DNA from: a virus
DNA: 39,289 nt
Reading direction: 5' to 3' (one strand)
IMG/VR virus record: IMGVR_UViG_3300046515_000273
Coordinates: 1-39,289 of that record
A model generated the notes under the pieces. The model had not been told where the DNA came from and did no database searches. It saw only the letters and a list, made by a program, of their open reading frames with translations. The position numbers and the translations under genes were made by a program. Every line of letters begins with the position of its first letter. Position 1 is the stretch's first letter. Below are positions 7,476 through 20,599 of this stretch, piece by piece.

Positions 7476-7580
7476 TTATCCGAAGTGATGAAGAATGAGA
7501 TAGACAGCGAGGTCAATTGCCAGCGCGATACCGCAAGCCTTAGCCGGACCCTTCCAGTAGCTAACCGATAGCGAAGTCAT
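7476..7580 (-). CDS. Small membrane protein, 34 aa
   Basis: Begins MTSLSVSYWKGPAKA and consists mainly of one hydrophobic helix (CGIALAIDLAVYLILHHFG). The ATG lies inside the end of the upstream gene with GAGGACG 8 bases before it, and the TAA lies 4 bases before the next start, so it fills a gap in the operon. It is likely a single-span inner-membrane peptide. Function unknown. Confidence 0.5.
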   Translation of the reverse strand: MTSLSVSYWKGPAKACGIALAIDLAVYLILHHFG

Positions 7581-7887
7581 TGGCCGCGTCCTCGTCCTGT
7601 CGGTGGATGGAAACCTCGGCCTGGTCTTTCGCATAGACCGTGGTGATGTAGTTCCGAATCAGTCGGCCCGCTTCCAGTTCGTCGCCGGAGATCAGCGCGT
7701 CGAGGATCGGATTGGGACGACCCGGATGTTCGATGCTGGCCTCGGACATCCCCAGTTCCCACGTCTCGCGGCTGCGAAGTTCCGTGGCGATCTGCTTGTT
7801 GAGGCGATCCTGTGCCGCCTCGGCGTCGGCCTGCTGCTCTAGGTACTGAGCGACGGCCCAGCTTGCGTAGTCGGGTTGGGCGCTCAT
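7561..7887 (-). CDS. Hypothetical protein, 108 aa
   Basis: Mostly helical and acidic: YLEQQADAEAAQDRLNKQIA then ILDALISGDELEAGRLIRNY. No recognised family. The ATG overlaps the upstream TGA. It ends with TAG (7561-7563), one of five early genes that use TAG as stop; reading through would add five codons before TAA. Confidence 0.7.
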   Translation of the reverse strand: MSAQPDYASWAVAQYLEQQADAEAAQDRLNKQIATELRSRETWELGMSEASIEHPGRPNPILDALISGDELEAGRLIRNYITTVYAKDQAEVSIHRQDEDAANDFAIG

Positions 7888-10075: not shown

Positions 10076-10100
10076 GCTAGCCGTAACCATGAGTTACGCT
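10072..10100 (+). promoter_or_regulatory. Cro/early plus-strand promoter (PR-like)
   Basis: -35 TTGCGC (10072-10077), 17 bp, -10 TACGCT (10095-10100). It is identical in both hexamers to the minus-strand early promoter. The expected start of transcription, about 7 bases after the -10, falls on the ATG at 10107, so the first message is probably leaderless. Confidence 0.75.
10083..10097. promoter_or_regulatory. Repressor operator 3
   Basis: Perfect dyad GTAAC-CATGA-GTTAC spanning the spacer and -10 of the cro promoter. Confidence 0.75.
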
Positions 10101-10106
10101 TGGCAC

Positions 10107-10331
10107 ATGAAGGCAATTCAAAAGCTGCTCGACAGCGGGCTGACCCGCAAACAGATCGCCTTGACCATCGGCGTCACGTCTCACGCCGTTGCCATGTACG
10201 AAGACGGACGGAGATTCCCCGGCGCTCTCCCATTTATGGGCCTTGTGAAGCTCGCCGAGGAAAGAGGAATCCTACTTACTTGTCGCGACTTCTTTATCGA
10301 CCGGGCTGCGAAGCCCGGCACCGAAACCTGA
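10107..10331 (+). CDS. Cro-like regulator
   Basis: 74 aa starting MKAIQKLLDSGLTRKQIALT, with a helix-turn-helix (LTRKQIALTIGVTSHAVAMY) and a conserved phage tail ARG/GRRFPGALPF-type segment. Divergent from the repressor and first in the rightward transcript, so Cro-like control is the natural inference. I prefer the ATG at 10107 over the one at 10089: the latter lies inside operator 3 and upstream of the predicted transcription start. No Shine-Dalgarno is present, fitting a leaderless message. Confidence 0.7.
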   Translation: MKAIQKLLDSGLTRKQIALTIGVTSHAVAMYEDGRRFPGALPFMGLVKLAEERGILLTCRDFFIDRAAKPGTET

Positions 10332-10364
10332 CTTACCCAAAACGAGTCCTGAAAGGAACCACCG

Positions 10365-10550
10365 ATGTACGCCGATCCGACGCATGTAAGGGATAACCCG
10401 ATCAAGGTTCGCCTCAACGACGAGGAATACGCCGTCATTGAAGCCCTTGCCCGAATCAACAAGCGACAGCCCGCTGCGTTCGCTCGTGAGCTTCTTATGG
10501 CTGGCGTCGAACTGCTGGCGAAGAGTAACGACGAAGCGCGTGCGGCTTGA
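10365..10550 (+). CDS. Ribbon-helix-helix-like regulator, 61 aa
   Basis: The segment NPIKVRLNDEEYAVIEALA fits the strand-helix of Arc/MetJ-type DNA-binding proteins, followed by a second helix (AFARELLMAGVELL). AAAGGAAC precedes the ATG. It may act as a CII-like or Arc-like early regulator; the target is unknown. Ends with TGA. Confidence 0.65.
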   Translation: MYADPTHVRDNPIKVRLNDEEYAVIEALARINKRQPAAFARELLMAGVELLAKSNDEARAA

Positions 10551-10580
10551 AGTGTCTAGGGAGTCCCTGGGGAGGGCCAC

Positions 10581-10793
10581 ATGCCCGTAATCACATGCGA
10601 CCTGACCAATCACCAGCTCTCGGTACTTACCGAGGCGGCGAGTAGGGCAGGGATGTCGATAGAGGAATTCGCCGCACATGCGGCAGAGGTAGCCGTAGCG
10701 GCTCGCTACAAGCTGCCCGAGGTACGAAACAACGTGGTGCCTCTACAGGCCCTCAATAGGCAGTTGCGAGGACCGCCGAAATCTACGGGCTGA
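10581..10793 (+). CDS. Small putative regulator, 70 aa
   Basis: Starts MPVITCDLTNHQLSVLTEAA; strand-helix-helix outline similar to ribbon-helix-helix proteins (GMSIEEFAAHAAEVAV). GGGGAGG lies 8 bases before the ATG. Ends with TGA. The 74 bases after it show no feature. Confidence 0.55.
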   Translation: MPVITCDLTNHQLSVLTEAASRAGMSIEEFAAHAAEVAVAARYKLPEVRNNVVPLQALNRQLRGPPKSTG

Positions 10794-10867
10794 TCCACGG
10801 GACGAATCTTTCCTAGCGTCCGTAATCGAACCACACAGAACGTCAACACTGCATCAAGAGACCGTCG

Positions 10868-11428
10868 ATGACCCTTCGCAAGCCAATGTCAAAGAAGCTC
10901 CGCTTTGAGGTCTTTAAGCGCGATGGCTTCGCTTGCCAGTATTGCGGTGCTAAGGCTCCTGAAGTCCGACTGCACGTTGACCACATTGTGCCGGTAGCTA
11001 AGGGCGGTGAGGACGATATGTCAAACCTCACGACTGCCTGTGCTGAATGCAACCACGGGAAAGCTGCGAATTTCCATGACCCGCTTCTCCAGCGCATCAG
11101 CTATCTGGAGGTCCAACTTCGGGCGAATGAGTCTCTTCTCATGGAGTATCGCGACGCGATCTGGCACTTCAAGGAAAAGGGGATCAGGACCACCGAGTAC
11201 ATCCTCCGTGACTTCGACTTGGATCGCGTCATCACGGACGACGACTTCAACCGGGTCCACGAGCATGTGTGGAAGCTTGGCTATGTGGACGCGGCTGACG
11301 AATTCGCTATCGCGGCGCATGTTGTCGGAGAGGATTCCGAGGCGCGGGTGGTCATTGAATCCGCTATCGCGCACCTAGCCAGGGCCTCGCGAACAGATAT
11401 CGCCGGGCACGAGGCAGTTCTCGTATGA
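10868..11428 (+). CDS. HNH endonuclease
   Basis: 186 aa. The N-terminal HNH domain is complete: C23-x-x-C26 (FACQYCG), LHVDHIVPVAKGG with D38-H39, N53, C58-x-x-C61-N-H63. The C-terminal 110 residues are a helical region without known motif. In this position (just before the DUF1376 replication gene) HNH proteins are frequent in phages; a role in DNA processing is likely but it could be a homing-type nuclease. ATGA overlap with the next gene supports membership in the operon. Confidence 0.85.
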   Translation: MTLRKPMSKKLRFEVFKRDGFACQYCGAKAPEVRLHVDHIVPVAKGGEDDMSNLTTACAECNHGKAANFHDPLLQRISYLEVQLRANESLLMEYRDAIWHFKEKGIRTTEYILRDFDLDRVITDDDFNRVHEHVWKLGYVDAADEFAIAAHVVGEDSEARVVIESAIAHLARASRTDIAGHEAVLV

Positions 11429-12279
11429 ACTACTACAAACGCCATGTAGGCGACTACACGAAGGATGCCAGCCATCTCTCCCTCATGGAGCATGGCGCCT
11501 ACACACTGATCCTTGACCGCTACTACGCAACCGAGCGGCCCATCAGCCGCAGCGATGCTATGCGTGTCACCCATGCCCGATCCGAAGATGAGGTATCGGC
11601 GGTCGATTTCGTCCTGACTGAGTTCTTTGTCCTCCACGGCGACGTGTATCGCAGCAAACGGGCGGATGAGGAATTGAACGAATACCAGGCTAAGGCCGAC
11701 CTAAACCGAGAGAACGGGAAGCTCGGTGGCAGGCCCCCAAAGAAACCCAAAGAAAACCCAGACGGTAACCCAGAAATAACCCAGACGGTTTCCGAAACGA
11801 AACCCAGACAGGAACCCAAACGTAACCCAGAAGAAACCTTAGCCATTAGCCATAAGCCATTAGCCATTAAAAAAGCAAAAGCCTCTTTGGTTCCGACCAA
11901 TGAAACGGTCGAAACGATCCTGGCGGCTTATCACGAGATTCTTCCCCGGTGTAAGCGCATCGCTGTCCTAACCGACAAGCGGCTCAAGCGAGTGAGTGAG
12001 GCTGAGGCTATGGCCCGGAAGGTTTGCACTCAGCAAGGATGGGACTACGACCCCGCCCAGTTCTGGACTGGCTACTTCGAACAATGCTCTCTGGACGCTT
12101 GGCTTCGGGGCGACACCGCTAACCCGAAGAACCCTGCCTGGAAACAGCACCTCCTGTGTCTGATCGCCGAAGAACGCTTCGCCGACATCATGGACGCCGC
12201 TATCGCCGAGATTCAGGGCGAAGAAAAAATGAGGCCCTCAATCGGGGACGTTGCGAACCTGACCGAGGACGCCGCATGA
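11425..12279 (+). CDS. DUF1376 replication initiation protein
   Basis: 284 aa. The N-terminal DUF1376 domain (YYKRHVGDYTKDASHLSLME, then GAYTLILDRYY) is a winged-helix domain of phage replication initiators that occupies the place of lambda O. The middle (residues about 95-150) is a Lys/Pro/Asn-rich linker, and the C-terminal domain (WDYDPAQFWTGYFEQC) is typical of the same proteins. It overlaps the helicase gene downstream, as in an O-P pair. Ends with TGA. Confidence 0.85.
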   Translation: MNYYKRHVGDYTKDASHLSLMEHGAYTLILDRYYATERPISRSDAMRVTHARSEDEVSAVDFVLTEFFVLHGDVYRSKRADEELNEYQAKADLNRENGKLGGRPPKKPKENPDGNPEITQTVSETKPRQEPKRNPEETLAISHKPLAIKKAKASLVPTNETVETILAAYHEILPRCKRIAVLTDKRLKRVSEAEAMARKVCTQQGWDYDPAQFWTGYFEQCSLDAWLRGDTANPKNPAWKQHLLCLIAEERFADIMDAAIAEIQGEEKMRPSIGDVANLTEDAA

Positions 12280-13610
12280 GCGCATCCGAGCAGGCCGTGA
12301 TTGGCGCGATCTTCCTCGACCCGTCGTCGTACTGGCAGGTTGCGGACGTGGTTGGTGTGGAGGACTTCGGCGACCAGCGTTGCGCCCGACTGTTCGCGAA
12401 GCTGAAGGAACTTTGCGACGCCGCCCAGCCGGTAGACGTGTTCGTGGTGGGCGAGTCGTTTGACGATAACCAGATGGCCGCGTACGCCATGGAGGTGACG
12501 AACAACGCCGCCTCTGCTGCGAACGCTCGTGCATACGCCGAAGTGGTGCGCAGTGACAGTGAGCGCCGGAAGGTAGTCGCCGCAGGCCGCAGGATGGCCC
12601 TGGAAGCTCCTACGTTCAACGAGGCGCAAGCGATCCTGGCACAGGTAGCGCCTAGGCATACGAAGGCCGCCAAGCTCGCTCCAGAGGTCTTGGCGGAAGT
12701 CATGGATGCGATGCAGGCGAAGATCGAAATGGAGGGCCAGACGATGGGCTTGTCCACAGGGATTGGCAACTTCGACCGGCGCACTGGTGGGCTCTATCCG
12801 CAGACGTTGACGATCATCGCTGGCCGACCCTCGATGGGCAAGACCGCACTGGCGATGCAGATCGCCGTCAACGTGGCCTTGTCTGGCAAGCGGGTTTACA
12901 TCGCCACCATGGAGATGTCGGCGAAGGCGCTCATGGAGCGGGCTATCTCCTACGTGTCCAAAGTGGACTACGGCCTGATCCGCCGACCGAAGCTTTTGCA
13001 GGATTCGGACTGGATGAAGATCGTGGCGGCAACGGAGGTGCTGAACAAGTCCGGCCTGATCATCGACGAAACGCCGGCACAGACCCGCGAGTCGTTCATT
13101 GCCAGGGCGACGCAGCACCACATGCAGGATCCGCTAGCCCTGATGGTCGCCGACCACCTTGGCCTGTTCCAGCTTCCCGGCAAGGGTCGTCCGGACCTTG
13201 AGACCGGAAACATCACGAAGGGCATCCGCAACCTAAGCAAGACGCTGAACATCCCAGCCGTCTGCCTCGTGCAGTTGAATCGCAAAGTCGAGGAACGCCA
13301 GAACAAGCGTCCGCTGATGTCTGACCTTCGCGAGTCTGGCGGTATCGAGGAAGACGCCGATGTCGTGGCGATGGTCTACCGGGATGAGTACTACAACCCG
13401 GAAAGCCCGCAGAAGGGTTACGCCGAAATCCGCTTCCCGAAGAACCGGGAAGACGAGACGGGCATGGAGCCGCTACGCACCCACCTGAACCAAATGCACT
13501 TCGCCGATTGCGAGGAACTTCCCTTTGAGCCAGCCCCTGAGCCCCGTCGAACGAGTCGCAGCTTTGGCGGCTTCGCAAATCGCCAAGCGGGAGGCCGCCC
13601 GGACTCGTAA
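12276..13610 (+). CDS. dnaB: Replicative DNA helicase, DnaB type
   Basis: 444 aa. N-terminal DnaB domain (SASEQAVIGAIFLDPSSYW), then RecA-like ATPase with Walker A GRPSMGKTAL near residue 185, and the conserved SDLRESGGIEEDADVV arginine-finger region. It unwinds the phage replication fork and is likely loaded at an origin by the DUF1376 protein. The ATG at 12276 overlaps the previous TGA. The longer frame upstream lies within the DUF1376 gene. Ends with TAA. Confidence 0.92.
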   Translation: MSASEQAVIGAIFLDPSSYWQVADVVGVEDFGDQRCARLFAKLKELCDAAQPVDVFVVGESFDDNQMAAYAMEVTNNAASAANARAYAEVVRSDSERRKVVAAGRRMALEAPTFNEAQAILAQVAPRHTKAAKLAPEVLAEVMDAMQAKIEMEGQTMGLSTGIGNFDRRTGGLYPQTLTIIAGRPSMGKTALAMQIAVNVALSGKRVYIATMEMSAKALMERAISYVSKVDYGLIRRPKLLQDSDWMKIVAATEVLNKSGLIIDETPAQTRESFIARATQHHMQDPLALMVADHLGLFQLPGKGRPDLETGNITKGIRNLSKTLNIPAVCLVQLNRKVEERQNKRPLMSDLRESGGIEEDADVVAMVYRDEYYNPESPQKGYAEIRFPKNREDETGMEPLRTHLNQMHFADCEELPFEPAPEPRRTSRSFGGFANRQAGGRPDS

Positions 13611-13809
13611 CCGCGAGCAGTTCCCCTACGCCGCCGAGCTAATGGACCAGTTCGCGGAGTTCGATCCAAAGCTGATCTACGCAGAAGAAAACGGACGATC
13701 CATCGGGAAGCGACCGGACCAATCCAACAGCCTGGACGGCGACCGACTAGTAGCGATGCACGACCAGTTTGAACGTACCTCAACCCTGATGAACAAGAGG
13801 CGCAAATGA
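13525..13809 (+). CDS. Hypothetical protein, 94 aa
   Basis: TTG start at 13525 with GAGGAA about 8 bases upstream; it overlaps the end of the helicase gene in another frame. Helical and basic at the start (AALAASQIAKREAARTRNRE), acidic later. No family recognised. The next ATG overlaps its TGA. Confidence 0.55.
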   Translation: MSQPLSPVERVAALAASQIAKREAARTRNREQFPYAAELMDQFAEFDPKLIYAEENGRSIGKRPDQSNSLDGDRLVAMHDQFERTSTLMNKRRK

Positions 13810-14105
13810 ACAACTACACAAGCGAAGCGAATTACGTTGGCGATGCAGCGGCCCAGGTGGTCAGCCCGATATACGAACAGATCGAGTCTCTCGATAAGAG
13901 GCTTGAGACGACATATCAAGAGTTTCTGACTCTCCTTCAGCGTCTGTCCCCGGTGCTGACGAGCCCGAGCGATACCAATGAGTCGGGCGCCTCGTCTCGG
14001 GAGGCAGGCCAGTCGCCTCTACACGAACGACTCATCACGCTGAATACGAAGGCATCTGCCTTTGCCCGTGCAGTCTCCGAAACCCACAACCGCGTCACTG
14101 TCTGA
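13806..14105 (+). CDS. Hypothetical protein, 99 aa
   Basis: Helical protein starting MNNYTSEANYVGDAAAQVV with a coiled-coil-like stretch (IYEQIESLDKRLETTYQEFL), then a Ser-rich linker. The ATG overlaps the TGA of the previous gene. The function is unknown. Confidence 0.65.
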   Translation: MNNYTSEANYVGDAAAQVVSPIYEQIESLDKRLETTYQEFLTLLQRLSPVLTSPSDTNESGASSREAGQSPLHERLITLNTKASAFARAVSETHNRVTV

Positions 14106-14115
14106 GGAAATGGTC

Positions 14116-14328
14116 ATGAGTAGTGTCTACGAAGAAACCACCCTCCGGACCGGAGATTACGTCGATGCCATCCTGACCGACGTGCCCGGCTGGTGCGTTG
14201 TGGACAAGAAGACTCGTAAGGTCGTCACGTTTGCCAATACCCGCGAATGGGCCCGTGAGTTTGCCAACCCGCAGAAGGGCGAACGGATCGCTAAGGTTCA
14301 CTCGGTCACCTACGAGGTGGCTCACTGA
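14116..14328 (+). CDS. Hypothetical protein, 70 aa
   Basis: Starts MSSVYEETTLRTGDYVDAIL. A small beta-rich protein. The ATG at 14116 has GAGG about 7 bases upstream; an in-frame ATG at 14110 sits too close to it. Ends with TGA overlapping the next ATG. Confidence 0.6.
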   Translation: MSSVYEETTLRTGDYVDAILTDVPGWCVVDKKTRKVVTFANTREWAREFANPQKGERIAKVHSVTYEVAH

Positions 14329-14501
14329 TGAAGGCACATCTGATCGCTGCAGCATCTGTGATCACTTTCTGTTTTGCAGCGGTGTACTTCGGAACGCACC
14401 CCCTGGCGTTTCTACAGGCGATGGTGGTCGTGCTCATCTTAGCCATCCTCTGGACCGTTTACCTCGTCGCGTACCTTCTGGCTGGTGGTGGCTTCCGTTG
14501 A
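14328..14501 (+). CDS. Small two-span membrane protein, 57 aa
   Basis: Starts MKAHLIAAASVITFCFAAVY, and a second hydrophobic stretch (MVVVLILAILWTVYLVAYLL) follows. It overlaps both neighbours (TGATG upstream, TTGA downstream). Likely an inner-membrane protein of unknown role in the nin-type region. Confidence 0.6.
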   Translation: MKAHLIAAASVITFCFAAVYFGTHPLAFLQAMVVVLILAILWTVYLVAYLLAGGGFR

Positions 14502-14896
14502 TCGCCGTCCTGCCAGCAACCGACAGGGAGTCGGATATCAGCCGCCTAGCTGCCGTGTTGCTGGCAGCGCTTCCGGGCAAGCGGGTCAAGGTCGAGGTGA
14601 AGGAGTACGCCGACACCCGTAGCAGCGCACAGAACCGGTTCCTCTGGGGTAGTGCATACCCCGACATCCTGGCAAGCGGTCAGCTCGACGGATGGAACGC
14701 CGAAGACCTGCACGGATATTTCCTCGGCGAAATCTACGGATGGGAGACAGTCGAAGGGTTTGGACGTAAGCGCCTGCGTCCCGTCCGCCGTAGCTCCCGT
14801 ATGAGCAAGGCCGAATTTCTCAACTACGTAGCCGAGATCCAGCGCCGCATGGCCGAGATCGGTATCTACGTCTGCGATCCCAACGAGGTGACGTGA
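14498..14896 (+). CDS. ninB: NinB-family recombination protein
   Basis: 132 aa. The segment VKVEVKEYADTRSSAQNRFL followed by W-G and DLHGYFLGEIYG matches NinB (lambda Orf), a DNA-binding recombination mediator acting with exonuclease/annealing systems. The TTG start at 14498 overlaps the preceding TGA; a longer frame to 14198 runs through two other genes. The family is usually about 140-150 aa, so the length fits. Confidence 0.85.
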   Translation: MIAVLPATDRESDISRLAAVLLAALPGKRVKVEVKEYADTRSSAQNRFLWGSAYPDILASGQLDGWNAEDLHGYFLGEIYGWETVEGFGRKRLRPVRRSSRMSKAEFLNYVAEIQRRMAEIGIYVCDPNEVT

Positions 14897-14988
14897 TGCT
14901 TAAGTGGATTGCCATTGTTCTGGTTCTTGTCGGGCAATACGGGTGGGCCTGCGCTTTCTTCTGCCTCAACGAACTGGTGCGTGACTGA
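14896..14988 (+). CDS. Small membrane peptide, 30 aa
   Basis: Starts MLKWIAIVLVLVGQYGWACA, essentially one hydrophobic helix followed by a short tail (FFCLNELVRD). The ATG overlaps the NinB TGA and the TGA ends 1 base before the next ATG, so it is embedded in the operon. Unknown role. Confidence 0.5.
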   Translation: MLKWIAIVLVLVGQYGWACAFFCLNELVRD

Positions 14989-14989
14989 T

Positions 14990-15280
14990 ATGGCCGACCT
15001 ACGCAAAGCCGCGAGGGGTCGTGAGTGCCTAATCCGCTTGCCTACGGTGTGTAACCACAACCCGGAGACTGTCGTGCTCTGCCACGTACGCCTCGCCGGG
15101 ATCACTGGGGCAGGGCAGAAGGCTCCTGACATCCTTGGCGCATACGGGTGCAGCGACTGCCACGCGGAATGCGACCGCCGAACACAACTTCTTGCCACCG
15201 AGGACGTACGTCGGTGGTTCTACGAGGGCGTCCTACGAACGATCGCTCTCCTTGCCAACGAGAGGGTACTGAAATGGTGA
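14990..15280 (+). CDS. YbcO-like nuclease (DUF1364)
   Basis: 96 aa, the same length as E. coli DLP12 YbcO. It begins MADLRKAARGRECLIRLP and contains C-x-H (VCNHNPET), VVLCHVRL and YGCSDCHAECDRR, the metal-binding His/Cys set of the DUF1364 family. Known members are small nuclease-like proteins of lambdoid nin regions. An in-frame extension upstream overlaps the previous small gene and is rejected. Confidence 0.85.
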   Translation: MADLRKAARGRECLIRLPTVCNHNPETVVLCHVRLAGITGAGQKAPDILGAYGCSDCHAECDRRTQLLATEDVRRWFYEGVLRTIALLANERVLKW

Positions 15281-15528
15281 TTCTAGTTTTGATTGTCGCC
15301 CTCATCGGGGCAGGTGCATGGGTTCGTTCTGACTTCAAGTATCGCTACTGGAAAGAGCGCTGCGAGAACTATCAGGAACTTTACGAGAACGAGCGGGATG
15401 ATCGCATTGACTACGAGGCCGAGCTTGGGCGAACACAGGTCCAGCTTGAGGATTCCCGGCAGGCTTATGGCCGATTGATCGGGACGAAATGCCAGGGATG
15501 GGCCTCAGCCACCGTGACGAGGCACTGA
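15274..15528 (+). CDS. Membrane-anchored coiled-coil protein, 84 aa
   Basis: N-terminal membrane helix (MVILVLIVALIGAGAWV), then a charged coiled coil (RYWKERCENYQELYENERDD) with a basic tail. It overlaps the nuclease gene and is followed 2 bases later by the next ATG. Topology resembles an i-spanin, but it is far from the lysis genes. Unknown function. Confidence 0.6.
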   Translation: MVILVLIVALIGAGAWVRSDFKYRYWKERCENYQELYENERDDRIDYEAELGRTQVQLEDSRQAYGRLIGTKCQGWASATVTRH

Positions 15529-15530
15529 CC

Positions 15531-15830
15531 ATGGCTAAGCTCTACGTGGGATGCCGAGTGCGCATCAAGTGGTCCACGCACTTTCCTGAACTGGCAGGCG
15601 AAGTCGGGACCATTACGGATAAGGCCAGTGATGGCGGACTGGATGGTACATCCGATTGGATGGTCGCCCCGGACTGCTGGGGTTCGCCGAAGTCACCGAC
15701 GACGCGCGATGGAAATATTGGATTCTTCGCCCCTAACTCGGATCAGTTAGAGCCGGCGACGGATTCCTACGACAAGATCGAGTGGTCCGAGTGCATCTGG
15801 GCGCCCGAGCACCTTCGGGAGAAGGTATGA
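15531..15830 (+). CDS. Hypothetical protein, 99 aa
   Basis: Begins MAKLYVGCRVRIKWSTHFPE; the start resembles a small SH3-like barrel (YVGCRVRIKW ... GEVGTIT). The rest contains DWMVAPDCWGSP and a WSECIWAPEHL end, found in other phage proteins of unknown role. GAGG precedes the ATG. Overlaps the resolvase start. Confidence 0.65.
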   Translation: MAKLYVGCRVRIKWSTHFPELAGEVGTITDKASDGGLDGTSDWMVAPDCWGSPKSPTTRDGNIGFFAPNSDQLEPATDSYDKIEWSECIWAPEHLREKV

Positions 15831-16279
15831 CCACCTCAGTGCTCGGTATCGATCCCGGAACCCACGAGTCGGGTTACGCGCACTACGTCCATGGAGGCGG
15901 CGTGTTGTCCGCTGGTGTGGCTGCGAATGAAGACATCCTCGACCTTATCCGCTCGACGGATGCAGACCTCCTGGCGATTGAGAAGATCGTGAACTACGGC
16001 GTAGCGGTTGGGCAGGAAACGTTTGATACCTGTGTCTGGATTGGCCGCATGACTCAGGTGTGGCCGACACCTAGTGAGGTGGTGCTCGTGCCCCGCATGG
16101 CTGTGAAAAAGCACGTCTGCGGAACTGGTAAGGCGAAGGATCCACAGGTTCGCGATGGCCTTATCGCCATGGTCGGGCCCGTAGGCAACAAGAAATCTCC
16201 CGGCCCGACCTACGGCGTGAAGTCACACGCATGGTCAGCCCTCGGGGTGGCACTAACCGCAATTTCCACGAGGGCATGA
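15827..16279 (+). CDS. RuvC-like Holliday junction resolvase
   Basis: 150 aa. RNase H-fold resolvase signature: LGIDPGTHESGYAH (first Asp), LLAIEKI (Glu), and the C-terminal helix with SHAWSALGVAL. In lambdoid phages a resolvase (Rap, RusA or RuvC-type) is placed here to process replication and recombination branches. The ATG at 15827 overlaps the TGA of the previous gene. Ends with TGA. Confidence 0.8.
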   Translation: MTTSVLGIDPGTHESGYAHYVHGGGVLSAGVAANEDILDLIRSTDADLLAIEKIVNYGVAVGQETFDTCVWIGRMTQVWPTPSEVVLVPRMAVKKHVCGTGKAKDPQVRDGLIAMVGPVGNKKSPGPTYGVKSHAWSALGVALTAISTRA

Positions 16280-16680
16280 TGATGAACAGTCAGCATCTAA
16301 GCAAGACACTCCGGATCGCCCTGTACCACATCGCCTCGGCTTCGCCGGCACACGAGCGGAAATCAGACAGTCATGAAAACCATGGCGTCATCACCGTGCG
16401 TCCGTCGCCCCACCTGTCGTCGGACTGGCGGACTCGTGAGCATGAATTCTTGTGGGCCATCTACTCGCGGGCCGTCTATGACTACTTCGGCTTCGGTCTG
16501 AGTGGTGGCAAGTACGTCAACGCGGACATTCCGGCTAGTGATCTCGCCGTCCGTGGGGTGATCGAACTCCCTGGCGGTCAAGAGCGGAACATTCTGGAAC
16601 TTCTCGGCATATCGCCTGACTGGGCATGGGCGCAGCTACAGACGGCGGTTAACTACACGAAGATGAAGGAGGCGGCGTGA
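16276..16680 (+). CDS. Hypothetical protein, 134 aa
   Basis: Starts at ATGATGATG (MMMNSQHLSKTL) with GAGGG just upstream; any of the three could be used. Contains REHEFLWAIYSRAVYDYFGF and NILELLGISPDWAWAQL. No family recognised. Translationally coupled to the next gene. Confidence 0.6.
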   Translation: MMMNSQHLSKTLRIALYHIASASPAHERKSDSHENHGVITVRPSPHLSSDWRTREHEFLWAIYSRAVYDYFGFGLSGGKYVNADIPASDLAVRGVIELPGGQERNILELLGISPDWAWAQLQTAVNYTKMKEAA

Positions 16681-16871
16681 AGATCGTCAAGTTCAGTGAT
16701 GGGAAATACGGTGTTCGAAAGTGGAGCCTTTTCGGATACGAGTACCTTAGCCTTAGGTTTCCGCTCATGTTTTGGTGGACTAGAGGGTCAACATTCTACG
16801 ACGAATGCCGGGGAACACTTGGCGAGGCAAGCGCCGCCTTTGCGAAAATGGACAAGGGGACGCCAGTATGA
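16677..16871 (+). CDS. Small hypothetical protein, 64 aa
   Basis: GTG start with AAGGAGGCGGC immediately upstream and overlapping the TGA of the previous gene. Aromatic-rich start (MKIVKFSDGKYGVRKWSLFG); similar short phage proteins begin with KFSDGKYGVR-type sequence. Unknown role. Confidence 0.6.
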   Translation: MKIVKFSDGKYGVRKWSLFGYEYLSLRFPLMFWWTRGSTFYDECRGTLGEASAAFAKMDKGTPV

Positions 16872-17359
16872 CCACCCACGACATCCTAGGCCGCGACACG
16901 GACGAGGCATTTGCCATGCCGGAACTGTCCGATGCGTGTATCGACGCGGCTAACCGGACGGCGAGGTTGTTTGATGCCCATTACCCCGGATGGCAGTTGT
17001 ATTCGAGGGTAGTGCGTGGCGACACCGTCTACGACCGCCAGCTAGCCGCGTGGGCCATCGGTATGGCTAGGCAGCACACCCGCACCCGGAAGACGAACGG
17101 GCAGGCCGTGGTGGCTCCTAGGGGGCGTAGGAACGATTGGATTGCGCAGGCGGGAATCGATGCATTGGAGTTTGTGCTGACCGGACGCCACGAGGAAAAC
17201 TCTTGGGACGCTGAGGCCCGCCTGGGAATCCACCATGCCATCTACGCCAAGATCAGGGGGGAGCTTGGGGCGCTGATGGCCGAGGGGCTTGAGTGCTATT
17301 CGGTGGAGTTGCGGCACCAGTATTACTACGCCCTTCGCGACTCTCGCATGACTGCATAA
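16868..17359 (+). CDS. Hypothetical protein, last middle gene, 163 aa
   Basis: Starts MTTHDILGRDTDEAFAMPEL. Mostly helical, containing AAWAIGMARQHTRTRKTNGQ and a basic segment (APRGRRNDW). I recognise no family. It occupies the place where lambdoid phages carry a late antiterminator (Q), but no Q-like zinc motif is seen. Ends with TAA and is the last gene before the TAG-containing half. Confidence 0.6.
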   Translation: MTTHDILGRDTDEAFAMPELSDACIDAANRTARLFDAHYPGWQLYSRVVRGDTVYDRQLAAWAIGMARQHTRTRKTNGQAVVAPRGRRNDWIAQAGIDALEFVLTGRHEENSWDAEARLGIHHAIYAKIRGELGALMAEGLECYSVELRHQYYYALRDSRMTA

Positions 17360-17417
17360 ACGCCGGATAAACAGCCAGAAGGAGGACTACCGGCAGTGCG
17401 AAATACGGCTTTATCCT

Positions 17418-17444
17418 GAACCTACCTCTAGCAAATATAGGTTC
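17418..17444 (+). promoter_or_regulatory. Hairpin over the start region of the GIY-YIG gene
   Basis: 7-bp perfect stem GAACCTA/TAGGTTC with a 13-base loop and no T run, ending 3 bases before the ATG at 17448. The only purine-rich ribosome-site candidate (AGG) lies in the 3' arm, so the stem could hide it. A strong AAGGAGG at 17379-17385 upstream leads to a GTG with a 7-codon frame (17396-17419), possibly a leader peptide. Confidence 0.35.
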
Positions 17445-17447
17445 TGT

Positions 17448-17861
17448 ATGTTCCCCGTTGTCTATCTAATCGAGTGCTTTGATATCAGTGGAAACAGGTA
17501 CATGAAGGTTGGCCGGAGTAGTCGGCTAACACACCGGATTTCAGAGATTTAGACAGGTTGCCCGTTCCCGATACGAAGGTGTAGGTATTTCTGCCTAGCT
17601 AGCGTTCAAGAATCAAAGGTCGCCGAGCGGTGCGTTCATGCCGCCCTGATTAGGCATCAGTGCTTGGGGGAGTGGTTCTATGCCGGGGCAGGGGATTTGC
17701 GTGCATAGGACGACCTAGAGAACGTGCCAGTAGAGGCAATCTCACTGGCAGCACAACGACCAGTAAGGCCAAGGGGATATAAGCCGAAGCAGTCTAAGCT
17801 GACGAGACGTAGGGCTGAGGCAGGTCACGCGTCTATGACCGGGAATTATTTTCCGCGCTGA
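17448..17861 (+). CDS. GIY-YIG (T5orf172/MUG113-type) nuclease, TAG-recoded
   Basis: 137 aa when TAG at 17550 and 17706 is read as Gln. Visible family pattern: VVYLIE near the start, RYMKVGRSSRLTHRISEI, then Q(TAG)-TGCPFPI, a Glu/His helix (SKVAERCVHAAL) and LGEWFYAG. The first TAG falls where the family typically has Gln before TG-x-P, one of the best single arguments for the decoding. Tail is basic (RPRGYKPKQSKLTRRRA). Under the standard code only 34 codons remain, so the gene is invisible to ordinary annotation. It may be a mobile nuclease or phage defence/DNA-processing gene. Confidence 0.8.
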
Positions 17862-18104
17862 CTGTGACTACGTCGAAATCCACCCCTACCCTAGGTGTCG
17901 AGGGCGGATTACACGCCTGAGATTCCCGGAAGCCTCTGTGGGCCCGTTCATCGAACGGCAGTCGCCGCATAGCCAGAAAGGCCGGGGATTACTGTCGCAA
18001 GGACAGGCCGGCATTGGTGGATGCCTCCGCATCCGGTAAGCGGAACCGACATATACCTCAAGATTCCAGCGAACCGGCTGATTCTTGAGAGGAATATCAA
18101 GATT
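17862..18104 (+). other. Boundary segment before tRNA-Gly
   Basis: No gene can be assigned with confidence. With TAG (17970) as sense, a 72-codon GTG frame 17895-18113 is open, ending TDIYLKIPANRLILERNIKI-A-G, but it lacks a ribosome site and runs into the tRNA. Strong hairpins occur: CCGTTC-ATC-GAACGG near 17944, GGATGC-CTCC-GCATCC near 18019, and CTCAAGA/TCTTGAG around 18057-18089. The octamer TCAAGATT occurs twice. I looked here for a CUA-anticodon tRNA and did not find one. Confidence 0.4.
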
Positions 18105-18183
18105 GCGGGTTAACAAGCGTAAAGGGCGCGCAACGGCCTTCCAAGCCGCAGAACGCGGAGTTCGATTCTCCTGGCCCGCTCCA
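18105..18183 (+). tRNA. tRNA-Gly (TCC)
   Basis: Acceptor stem GCGGGTT/GGCCCGC (two G-T pairs), discriminator T and encoded CCA; anticodon loop CTTCCAA with TCC at 18140-18142; T-arm GGAG-TTCGATT-CTCC. It resembles bacterial tRNA-Gly(UCC). The D-arm region has about three extra bases and there are mismatches at the ends of the anticodon and T stems, so it is somewhat degenerate and its activity is uncertain. It lies at the border between the standard-code and TAG-recoded halves. Confidence 0.75.
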
Positions 18184-18477
18184 GTTTCAGCCCATCCGGT
18201 CTCGGTCGGTGGCTTCGGGTGCAAATCCCGACTTACAGAAGTGGCGTTATTCCACCGGTTTCGGGCCGGGACGCACACGAAAGTGACATTTTTGCCGGTT
18301 GTGGCGTACAGCCCGCGATGCCCGATTCATCGCACCGGCACCCTAGTCGAGCGTGACCACTGCCGTGGGGATCGATGCTACCTGATGGCAGTTCAGGCGA
18401 AAGGGGTCTAGGCCGGCGGGCCGAGTGATCGCTGGATGGCTCAACCAGCAAACTAATTCAATGCCTTCGGGGGCGAC
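18184..18477 (+). other. Boundary segment after tRNA-Gly
   Basis: No certain gene. GGGTGCAAATCCC near 18208 looks like a T-arm, but no acceptor or anticodon arm can be matched to it. With TAG (18409) as Gln, a small GTG frame 18283-18456 (57 aa) is open and contains CPIH and C-x4-C (HCRGDRC), a possible zinc-binding peptide; there is no clear ribosome site. Hairpins GTGG-CGTTATT-CCAC and a CCGG-rich stem lie between. Confidence 0.35.
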
Positions 18478-18981
18478 ATGATTCGTGCAACGGTTAACCA
18501 AAAGGGAAATCCCGAAAAGGATCGGAGCGAACTCCCCGAGTGGATGCAGCAGAGGTATGTGGACAATGCCCGCTACTCTGAGCAGCTTCAGGCAAACGCC
18601 TCCATTCGCCAGTTCGACACCGGCGCAACCCGCGATACGGATGCTGGGAAGATCGACTTCGACGGCTTCCTCAGCCCGTATGCCCTGAAGGCGTTCGGCG
18701 AGTACATGGACCGGCACCGCCATCATGCTGACGGCAAGGTCCGCGACTCAGATAACTGGCAGCGGGGGATCCCTCTCGATGCCTACATGAAGTCCATGTG
18801 GCGCCACTTCTTCGATGTCTGGTCCGAGCACCGTGGGGTTTCGACGCTGGCAGGACTCAAAGAGAACCTCTGCGCCCTCAAGTTCAACGTTGACGGGATG
18901 CTGCACGAGCTGGTTAAGGCTGAGCACGATCACACGCCGAGCGCTGGCTATGCCATGCCGCTTGCCGATCGGGAGGACTGA
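18478..18981 (+). CDS. DUF5664-type dATP/dGTP diphosphohydrolase-like protein
   Basis: 167 aa. The segment TGATRDTDAGKIDFDGFLSP, then RHRHHADGKVRDSDNWQRGI and YMKSMWRHFFDVW match the phage family annotated as dATP/dGTP diphosphohydrolase N-terminal domain (DUF5664), thought to adjust nucleotide pools. The closing helix (NLCALKFNVDGMLHELV) fits. No internal TAG, ends with TGA. No PurZ-like gene was seen, so a modified-base role is not supported here. Confidence 0.65.
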   Translation: MIRATVNQKGNPEKDRSELPEWMQQRYVDNARYSEQLQANASIRQFDTGATRDTDAGKIDFDGFLSPYALKAFGEYMDRHRHHADGKVRDSDNWQRGIPLDAYMKSMWRHFFDVWSEHRGVSTLAGLKENLCALKFNVDGMLHELVKAEHDHTPSAGYAMPLADRED

Positions 18982-18982
18982 T

Positions 18983-19819
18983 ATGGCTCGTCTAGGCAAG
19001 CGCATATTCGTCATTCCAGACACTCAGGTACGTCCTGGCGACCCGACTGACCACCTTGTGTGGATCGGTAAGGCCATCAAGGAATACGCCCCGGACTATT
19101 TGGTCCACTTGGGCGACCATTACGACATGCCCAGCATGTCTACATGGGCCCAGCCGGGATCGATTGGTCGCGAAGGTGTGCGGTATGCGGAAGACATCGA
19201 GGCAGGCAACGACGCCCTGAGCAAGCTCCACGAGGCCATGGGTGGCTTCCGTCCCGAGCGGAAAATCATCCTTACCGGCAATCATGAGCAAAGAATTCAA
19301 CGAGTTGTAGACGCCGATCCTAAGCTTGCTGGCACGCTCGGATACCACAATTTCAATGATCGATCGCTCGGATGGGAACGTGTCGATTACCTCGGGTCAA
19401 CGCCTGGCGTGATCGAGATTGAGGGGGTTAGCTTCGCGCACTACTTCGCGCAACCACTGACTAGCAAGCCCATTGGTGGAACGGCGGCATACAAGCTCAA
19501 CGCCATCGGTACGCCCTATGTCATGGGGCACGTTCAGGGCTACGACATCGGAACCAAGCAGTACGCCACGGGGCGGGTGATTCGAGGGATTGTCGCCGGT
19601 AGCTGCTACTTGGTGGACGAGGAATATCGGGGCAACGCGAATACCCATTTCCGGGGTTGCGTGGTGCTCAACGAGGTCAAGCGCGGCGACTTCTCGGAGA
19701 TGCCGATCACGCTAGAGCATTTATGCCACAAGCATACGGGGCGGACGCTGGGAAGCTACCTGCGCAGGAACTACAAGCGCGCCTCTGAGCGGTTCTCCCT
19801 GGCACGAGCAGCCTAGTAA
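18983..19819 (+). CDS. Calcineurin-like metallophosphoesterase
   Basis: About 277 aa. Metal-binding motifs: VIPDTQV (D13), HLGDHYD (G44-D45, D48), LTGNHEQR (N100-H101) and a later GHVQGYD. Substrate unknown: related phage enzymes are nucleases, phosphatases or cyclic-nucleotide phosphodiesterases. The gene ends in a tandem TAG-TAA (19814-19819). Under the standard code it stops at TAG; under the late code it gains one Gln and stops at TAA. The ATG at 18983 follows GGGAGG. Confidence 0.85.
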
Positions 19820-19872
19820 ATGTCCGCTACCTGATGCCATAACCGGCTTTACGTACCACGAAGCGCACATCG

Positions 19873-19922
19873 TTATTAAAGAATCCGGCCCTAAGCTTTA
19901 ATAAGCCGGGTCGTTATTAAAG
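19873..19922 (+). promoter_or_regulatory. Alternative-hairpin leader
   Basis: TTATTAAAG at 19873-19881, its reverse complement CTTTAATAA at 19896-19904, and a second TTATTAAAG at 19914-19922. The middle element can pair with either flank (loops of 14 and 9), giving two mutually exclusive stems. The 3' copy contains most of the AAAGG ribosome site of the next gene, so one fold would hide it and the other free it. Confidence 0.5.
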
Positions 19923-19930
19923 GTTATTTA

Positions 19931-20380
19931 CTGAGGATCGCTGTCATCACGACCATCGCAGTCAGCAAAGGTACGGTGGCCGCCGACAGCCAGATCACGG
20001 GCAATTTCAAGTTTCACGGCAACGTAAAGGTTCGCCGAGTCGAGAGTGGCCCGTATGCAGGGTGGATCTTCTGCGCTGCGGGTCGCCTCGATTACGTCCC
20101 GGTCGCATACGGACAGGTGGTAGCCGGCGAGTTCTCCCCGGTGTGTGGCCCTGAGGATGATGACGGTGGGTGCTACCTGCTGGTCGGTCGGTCCAAGGTC
20201 TACTGCCTGGAGGCCGACAAGATGATCCCGTACGAGGTAGCGAAGTCCTTCGCCATCGGTTCGGGTGCTAAATACGCGATGGCCGCGATGGCCTGCGGCA
20301 AGTCCCCGGCTGAGGCCGTGAGAGTCGCCGCCAAGTTCGATCCGTTCACCGGGGGAGCAGTGCGCTCCTTCGCCGTCTAA
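19931..20380 (+). CDS. Proteasome/HslV-like Ntn hydrolase family protein
   Basis: 149 aa from a CTG start. The sequence TTIAVSKGTVAADSQITGN matches the N-terminus of phage proteins related to proteasome beta/HslV subunits (TTIA...ADSQ), in which the Thr after Met is the catalytic nucleophile; a late segment (AIGSGAKYAMAAMACGKSPA) also fits. No ATG/GTG/TTG is placed correctly: CTG at 19931 has AAAGG 7 bases upstream, and the GTG at 19976 would delete the catalytic Thr. If CTG is used, about six residues precede the TT. No internal TAG. Confidence 0.6.
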   Translation: MRIAVITTIAVSKGTVAADSQITGNFKFHGNVKVRRVESGPYAGWIFCAAGRLDYVPVAYGQVVAGEFSPVCGPEDDDGGCYLLVGRSKVYCLEADKMIPYEVAKSFAIGSGAKYAMAAMACGKSPAEAVRVAAKFDPFTGGAVRSFAV

Positions 20381-20401: not shown

Positions 20402-20599
20402 ATGCAGACCGAGCATATCGCTGACGCGATCAAGGCAACGCCCGTAGCAGGGTTCATTGGGACCTCATTGATGGGCTGGTAGTGGGATACGTTTTCGTAC
20501 GTCGTGGCGTCGGCGTACACATGCCTGATGATCTGCGAGAAGTTGTGGCGCTGGTACAAGGCTTGGCAGGCGAAGAAGAATGACGTTACGGAGTCCTAA
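20402..20599 (+). CDS. Holin, TAG-recoded
   Basis: 65 aa with TAG at 20480 (codon 27) read as Gln. A hydrophobic region (VAGFIGTSLMGW-Q-WDTFSYVVASAYTCLMI) is followed by a basic tail (EKLWRWYKAWQAKKND). Position just before, and overlapping, the endolysin gene supports a holin. The TAG lies inside the membrane region, so without decoding no functional holin can form. GGGGAAG lies upstream of the ATG. Confidence 0.65.

Follow-up and report, generated by a model that had tools for sequence, protein, structure and literature searches.

A GIY-YIG nuclease gene with two in-frame TAG codons in an exchanged slot at the end of a phage early region

Introduction

How can a phage reading frame that is broken by two amber codons encode a nuclease, and what would such a gene be doing close to the place where the genome begins to use TAG as a sense codon? 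We examine this question in a whole virus record of 39,289 bases (the window), using related genomes and loci, which we name by G numbers and L numbers respectively. Both parts of the puzzle have precedents. Among phage homing endonucleases, the T5orf172 nucleases form an established group and are located at exchange boundaries (Barth et al. 2023, PMC10448857); those described usually carry zinc fingers, and one of them, Odn of phage ICP1, cuts the replication origin of a parasite (PMC10448857). Reading of TAG as glutamine in late phage genes is also known, an intein-bearing gene included (PMC7886860), with proteomic proof (PMC9523058), and code-15 phages with TAG recoding of late genes are further described by Borges et al. 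2022, as cited in PMC9523058. The features that we discuss are collected in Table 1.

Table 1. Features of the nuclease locus, with positions in the window unless a locus is named
Feature	Position	Strand	Basis
T5orf172/MUG113-type GIY-YIG nuclease (137 aa with Gln at the TAGs)	17448..17861	+	Pfam matches, purifying selection, modelled fold compared with PDB structures
In-frame TAG (codon 35), within the nuclease domain at the conserved Gln position of IQTGCP	17550..17552	+	TAG in 3/3 genomes
In-frame TAG, codon 87, just past the nuclease domain	17706..17708	+	TAG in G001, CAA (Gln) in G002
Predicted 7-bp hairpin GAACCTA/TAGGTTC	17418..17444	+	In 3/3 genomes, -6.7 kcal/mol
GGAGG, then a conserved minicistron of seven codons (GTG/ATG CGA AAT ACG NNN TTA YCC TGA)	17381..17419	+	Three-genome alignment
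Last early gene, 163 aa, family unnamed	16868..17359	+	First 300 nt conserved; 3' third varies with the slot allele
Exchange cassette, comprising the nuclease gene, its leader and the last third of the gene upstream	17172..17899	.	Identity break points against GIY-free relatives
Amber suppressor tRNA (CTA), 1:72 mismatch, G73, Gln-type identity	22808..22882	+	ARAGORN, Rfam, 1:72 check, residue opposite TAG
Suppressor tRNAs of relatives	L008:3960-4053, L009:18287-18380, L012:7494-7568, L018:8027-8116, L027:9553-9646, L031:8225-8298		

Results

The interrupted frame is maintained as a protein

The original prediction held that a frame of 137 codons is open here only when TAG is sense, with TAGs at 17550 and 17706, and we find exactly this. 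To ask whether such a frame is a gene at all is to ask how it evolves. Copies are present in two relatives, G001 (IMGVR 3300047469_000098, 97% identical) and G002 (IMGVR 3300049460_000379, 90% identical), and in both the frame is undegraded. The 63 changes that separate the window from G002 fall 10, 6 and 47 times at the first, second and third codon positions, and the dN/dS ratio is 0.087 for the window against G001 and 0.082 against G002. Retention in two relatives, third-position bias and low dN/dS together mark the frame as a real gene and not a chance opening. The alternative that it is a decaying pseudogene, with the TAGs as ordinary stop mutations, would fit the two stops under the standard code and a codon score that is low for this genome. 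Against this, the window-G002 ratio stays low in every segment (0.10 for codons 1-34, 0.03 for codons 36-86 and 0.15 for codons 88-137); no segment that follows a TAG reaches 0.16, and after the second TAG the ratio is 0.13-0.15. Selection therefore maintains the protein sequence downstream of the two TAGs as well. In addition, the TAG at codon 87 is replaced in G002 by another glutamine codon with the flanking residues conserved, and every nuclease-bearing genome also encodes a CTA tRNA. Judged by these substitution patterns the gene is intact and under purifying selection, and we regard decay as very improbable.

The protein belongs to the T5orf172/MUG113 branch of GIY-YIG nucleases

A T5orf172/MUG113 pattern had been noticed in this frame from the sequence alone, and a profile search with TAG read as glutamine bears it out: the protein matches T5orf172 (PF10544) with 37.1 bits against a gathering cut-off of 20 (4.9e-9) and MUG113 (PF13455) with 30.8 bits against a cut-off of 22.3 (4.6e-7), and the G002 copy matches likewise. 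The residues typical of the family (K-x-G, Arg, Glu, His and E-W-F) are all found, and K20, G22, R30, P39, E60, H64, G74, E75, W76 and F77 are invariant among the eight sequences aligned. An AlphaFold model built from four sequences has a mean pLDDT of 68.9, rising to about 82 over residues 1-80. When this model is compared with the PDB by VIA-align, the best 15 rows are all GIY-YIG proteins, with Z scores of 7.0 for At-HIGLE, 5.7-6.3 for Slx1, 4.7-5.7 for the UvrC N-domain and 4.7 for UPF0213, and unrelated rows start at 4.0. A Foldseek search of the PDB with the same model gave no match under E 0.28, so that the structural support consists of VIA-align Z scores of at most 7 together with the profile matches, and the family assignment leans mainly on the profiles and conserved residues. 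Sequence searches of the PDB returned nothing with the single sequence and nothing credible with a profile; NCBIfam gave no match, and a scan of genome contigs found no relative. From the model and the profiles together we conclude that the protein, as modelled, adopts the GIY-YIG fold, and it is presumably a DNA-cutting enzyme.

Pfam has no match at residues 80-137, the model there is mostly below pLDDT 50, and no DNA-binding domain is recognised in these C-terminal 57 residues. This bears on a second alternative, in which the protein is an anti-satellite or anti-competitor nuclease in the manner of ICP1 Odn. Odn is itself a phage T5orf172 protein (PMC10448857), and small size and patchy distribution would suit such a role. 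The nuclease shows no RepA_N or other DNA-binding part recognised by Pfam, however, and has no match in PADLOC. To our knowledge no satellite of this phage has been described, and we consider the anti-satellite role improbable.

TAG is read as glutamine in the late region and as stop in the early region

The first TAG lies where a glutamine is expected, as the original prediction proposed: glutamine occupies this position in four of five distant homologues, within the motif (I/L/V)Q(T/S)GCP. The same assignment emerges genome-wide. Where relatives have a sense codon opposite a TAG of the window, glutamine is by far the commonest residue (11.4 of 31 positions), and it ranks first in 11 of 12 genomes compared across the wider group, the exception being G015; informative positions are few in G015 (five) and in G001 (six). 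The window encodes a tRNA that could do the reading, with 42.4 bits to the Rfam tRNA model. Every suppressor tRNA that we examined combines a CTA anticodon with a mismatch at 1:72 and with G73. In G001 and G002 two ordinary tRNAs lie beside the suppressor, and in these 1:72 is paired. In E. coli, a weak 1:72 pair converts amber tRNA-Ser, and also amber tRNA-Asn, to glutamine acceptors (PMC9976931). We considered whether TAG might mean serine in G001, G002 and G012, where the suppressor has a long variable arm and a Ser-like body, and rejected this, given that TAG aligns mainly with glutamine and that the 1:72 mismatch and G73 fit glutamine identity. On this comparative evidence, the phage decodes both TAGs of the nuclease as glutamine with an amber suppressor tRNA of its own.

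The bodies of these tRNAs vary: some are 75 nt long, one type has 94 nt and a long arm, and others have 74 or 90 nt. Related phages thus carry, at the same place upstream of the terminase, amber tRNAs with very different bodies, a variety that looks like the repeated conversion of different tRNAs to glutamine identity.

In the early region TAG still serves as a stop. The integrase gene ends at a TAG (970-972) where its G008 homologue ends, and the gene at 7561-7887 likewise ends at a TAG at the end of its homologues. Late suppression would extend the integrase by 20 codons past its TAG. Among glutamine codons, an in-frame TAG is used at none of 51 in the early plus-strand genes (10089-17360) and at 32 of 394 in the late part. 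The nuclease had been described as the first recoded gene, lying exactly at the code boundary and next to the tRNA. It is indeed the first plus-strand gene with in-frame TAGs. Its place at the boundary is right in a loose sense; the boundary itself is not sharp, as the next three genes (18478-20380) are free of in-frame TAG, among them a metallophosphoesterase gene that ends in TAG and then at once TGA (19814-19819). The third point does not stand: the CTA tRNA sits 4.9 kb downstream, and what adjoins the nuclease is a structured, tRNA-like RNA without a CTA anticodon.

Do the TAGs themselves appear to be kept? The TAG at codon 35 is present in all three nuclease-bearing genomes; in relatives at similar distance about half of TAGs are retained, and codon 35 does not exceed this background, so there is no sign of selection on the TAGs themselves. 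We therefore dropped selection to keep this TAG as an unneeded explanation. Two of the five glutamine codons of the nuclease are TAG against 8% in late genes, an excess that a binomial estimate of ~0.06 leaves unconvincing.

The gene sits in a slot whose content is exchanged

The original prediction also suggested a mobile passenger, and here the support is good: it comes from patchy presence, incongruent divergence, replacement of the slot content, the HNH nuclease that fills the slot of one sibling, and a deviant GC3. The nuclease is found in three of the 16 available records that carry the upstream gene, some of these records being nearly identical to each other. Between the window and G001, dS is 0.15 for the nuclease against 0.59-0.66 for terminase and portal, and identity reaches 92-100% across 17408-17887 but drops on either side. 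G002 is about 30% identical to the window in terminase and portal and 90% in the nuclease. G003 and G007, whose backbones are much closer (dS to the window of 0.12-0.32 in the terminase, portal, scaffold-position and capsid genes), are without the nuclease. Its GC3 of 0.56 is the minimum of the genome, where the value is 0.715 +/- 0.055.

The borders of the exchanged segment can be placed closely. Against most GIY-free relatives, identity collapses at 17169-17175 and returns at 17899. In the pair G002 and G006, identity is 93-100% up to 17172 on the left and 87-97% from 17899 on the right, and between these flanks 727 nt in G002 take the place of 241 nt in G006. The slot holds an HNH_3 nuclease in G007, another ORF in G012 (with an HNH gene further on), and no ORF in G003, G004, G006 and G011. 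The gene to its left has no Pfam match and could not be named. To its right lie about 600 bases of structured, tRNA-like sequence and then the lysis region, with the endolysin at 20580. We conclude from these comparisons that the nuclease has been exchanged between phage backbones, recently and together with flanking sequence.

Such a pattern is what homing would leave, and it does not prove homing, as modular recombination in conserved flanks looks similar; since the surroundings of the gene are modular in all pairs, the exchange could be ordinary recombination of this kind. We found no target site for the nuclease. The main alternative accordingly takes the protein for a resident phage nuclease (for DNA processing, host DNA degradation or phage exclusion) that is not self-mobile and is carried along by ordinary homologous recombination. 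Near-identical break points in most pairs, whatever the cargo, count towards it, as does the change of the 3' third of the upstream gene with the cargo, as one would expect of a regulator that is swapped jointly with its downstream site, and the lack of a recognised DNA-binding domain. In G016 a distant GIY-YIG relative that has no in-frame TAG (L034:1020-1529) occupies a similar position: the gene directly before it weakly matches a zinc finger (DnaJ-type CxxCxGxG) and lysis genes follow, an arrangement that would also suit a resident enzyme. Speaking against residence, the latest tract shared by the window and G001 spans little beyond the leader and the nuclease gene, a sibling has another nuclease family in the slot, most relatives do without the gene, and its GC3 is deviant. 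We rate a resident nuclease as rather unlikely, and homing-type mobility as the better account.

Two RNA elements occupy the structured stretch to the right of the slot. At 18104-18180 lies a tRNA-Gly(TCC)-like element with an odd D-arm that scores 24.6 bits to tRNA-Sec, below the Rfam cut-off; it recurs in L012, L017 and L027, with an anticodon stem that varies while its pairing is kept. At 18293-18342 a 50-nt three-way-junction RNA (outer stem GCCGGT...ACCGGC) has equivalents in L010, L012, L013, L017, L021 and L027, with compensatory changes (94% of cells paired, four pairs changed on both sides) and no Rfam match. It ends the RNA-rich stretch, often directly 5' of the next reading frame.

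The leader may hide the ribosome site

The only Shine-Dalgarno-like sequence before the nuclease ATG is an AGG (17439-17441), and it lies within the 3' arm of the predicted hairpin. In T4 I-TevI to III and segB, and in Aeh1 mobE, hairpins that hide the ribosome site delay translation (PMC2988022); by analogy, the hairpin here may act in the same way. Over its full length, the leader region is no more stably folded than shuffled sequence (z 0.94). Three further matches to the hairpin elsewhere share only the 17-mer searched for and look like chance. The conserved minicistron, which has a strong GGAGG before it, is possibly a leader. At 17396-17447 it ends TCC/CCC TGA A, and in all three genomes the frame downstream stays open as far as the nuclease start; a +1 frameshift that fuses the minicistron to the nuclease is conceivable.

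Discussion

This locus is an intact T5orf172-type GIY-YIG gene whose TAGs are read as glutamine through the phage's own tRNA, and we think it probable, if far from certain, that it is a free-standing passenger of the homing type that can be translated only where the suppressor tRNA is present. Related phages fill the slot that closes the early operon with different nucleases or leave it empty, and this nuclease would have moved in by homing. An early transcript, in the absence of the suppressor tRNA, would give only a 34-residue fragment; the TAG at codon 35 lies inside the nuclease domain, and so without suppression the product stops before most of the domain. Once the late operon that holds the tRNA gene is expressed, the full enzyme would be made, and the hairpin over a weak ribosome site may be a second brake, as in the T4 homing nucleases. 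The full-length enzyme would then be a late product with its activity confined to the recoded phase, as the original prediction had offered for one of its readings.

This locus can be set beside three known systems. It resembles the T5orf172 homing endonucleases of ICP1 and T5-like phages (PMC10448857) in its domain, in being free-standing, in its exchange boundary and in its patchy distribution; it differs in its size of 137 aa, in having no recognised zinc-finger or DNA-binding domain, in the reading of TAG as glutamine, and in lying between early and lysis genes, whereas those lie beside terminase or reductase genes. With the T4 Seg proteins, SegB in particular (PMC2988022, PMC13096335), it shares a free-standing GIY-YIG enzyme, a predicted hairpin-hidden ribosome site and probably late timing; the segB gene lies in a tRNA gene region, and the nuclease here adjoins a tRNA-like RNA. 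The GIY-YIG subfamily is nonetheless another one, homing has been demonstrated for several Seg proteins and is only our reading here, and T4 has no TAG recoding. As in the code-15 crAss-like phages (PMC7886860, PMC9523058), a phage CTA suppressor tRNA goes with TAG as glutamine in late structural genes and as stop in early ones. Unlike those phages, ours belong to a group of roughly 39 kb with an integrase, and what is recoded is a passenger nuclease gene that borders the early region.

A further step would be to see in the TAGs a lock that times a mobile nuclease, which is transcribed early with the operon and translated only after the late operon has supplied the tRNA. We put this forward tentatively and think it unlikely on present evidence. 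If it is true, the code switch takes over a job that in the T4 homing nucleases falls to late promoters and to hairpins at the ribosome site, and the lock limits the spread of the nuclease to phages with the same code. T5orf172 homing nucleases and late reading of TAG as glutamine are already known, and the novelty would lie in the code switch as a timer for a nuclease.

Gene finders that use the standard code miss this gene, and nuclease cargo in recoded phages is therefore probably undercounted. Relatives with the slot empty, with this nuclease or with an HNH nuclease would offer a natural test of whether a private code controls the timing of a mobile nuclease and the range of phages that it can reach.
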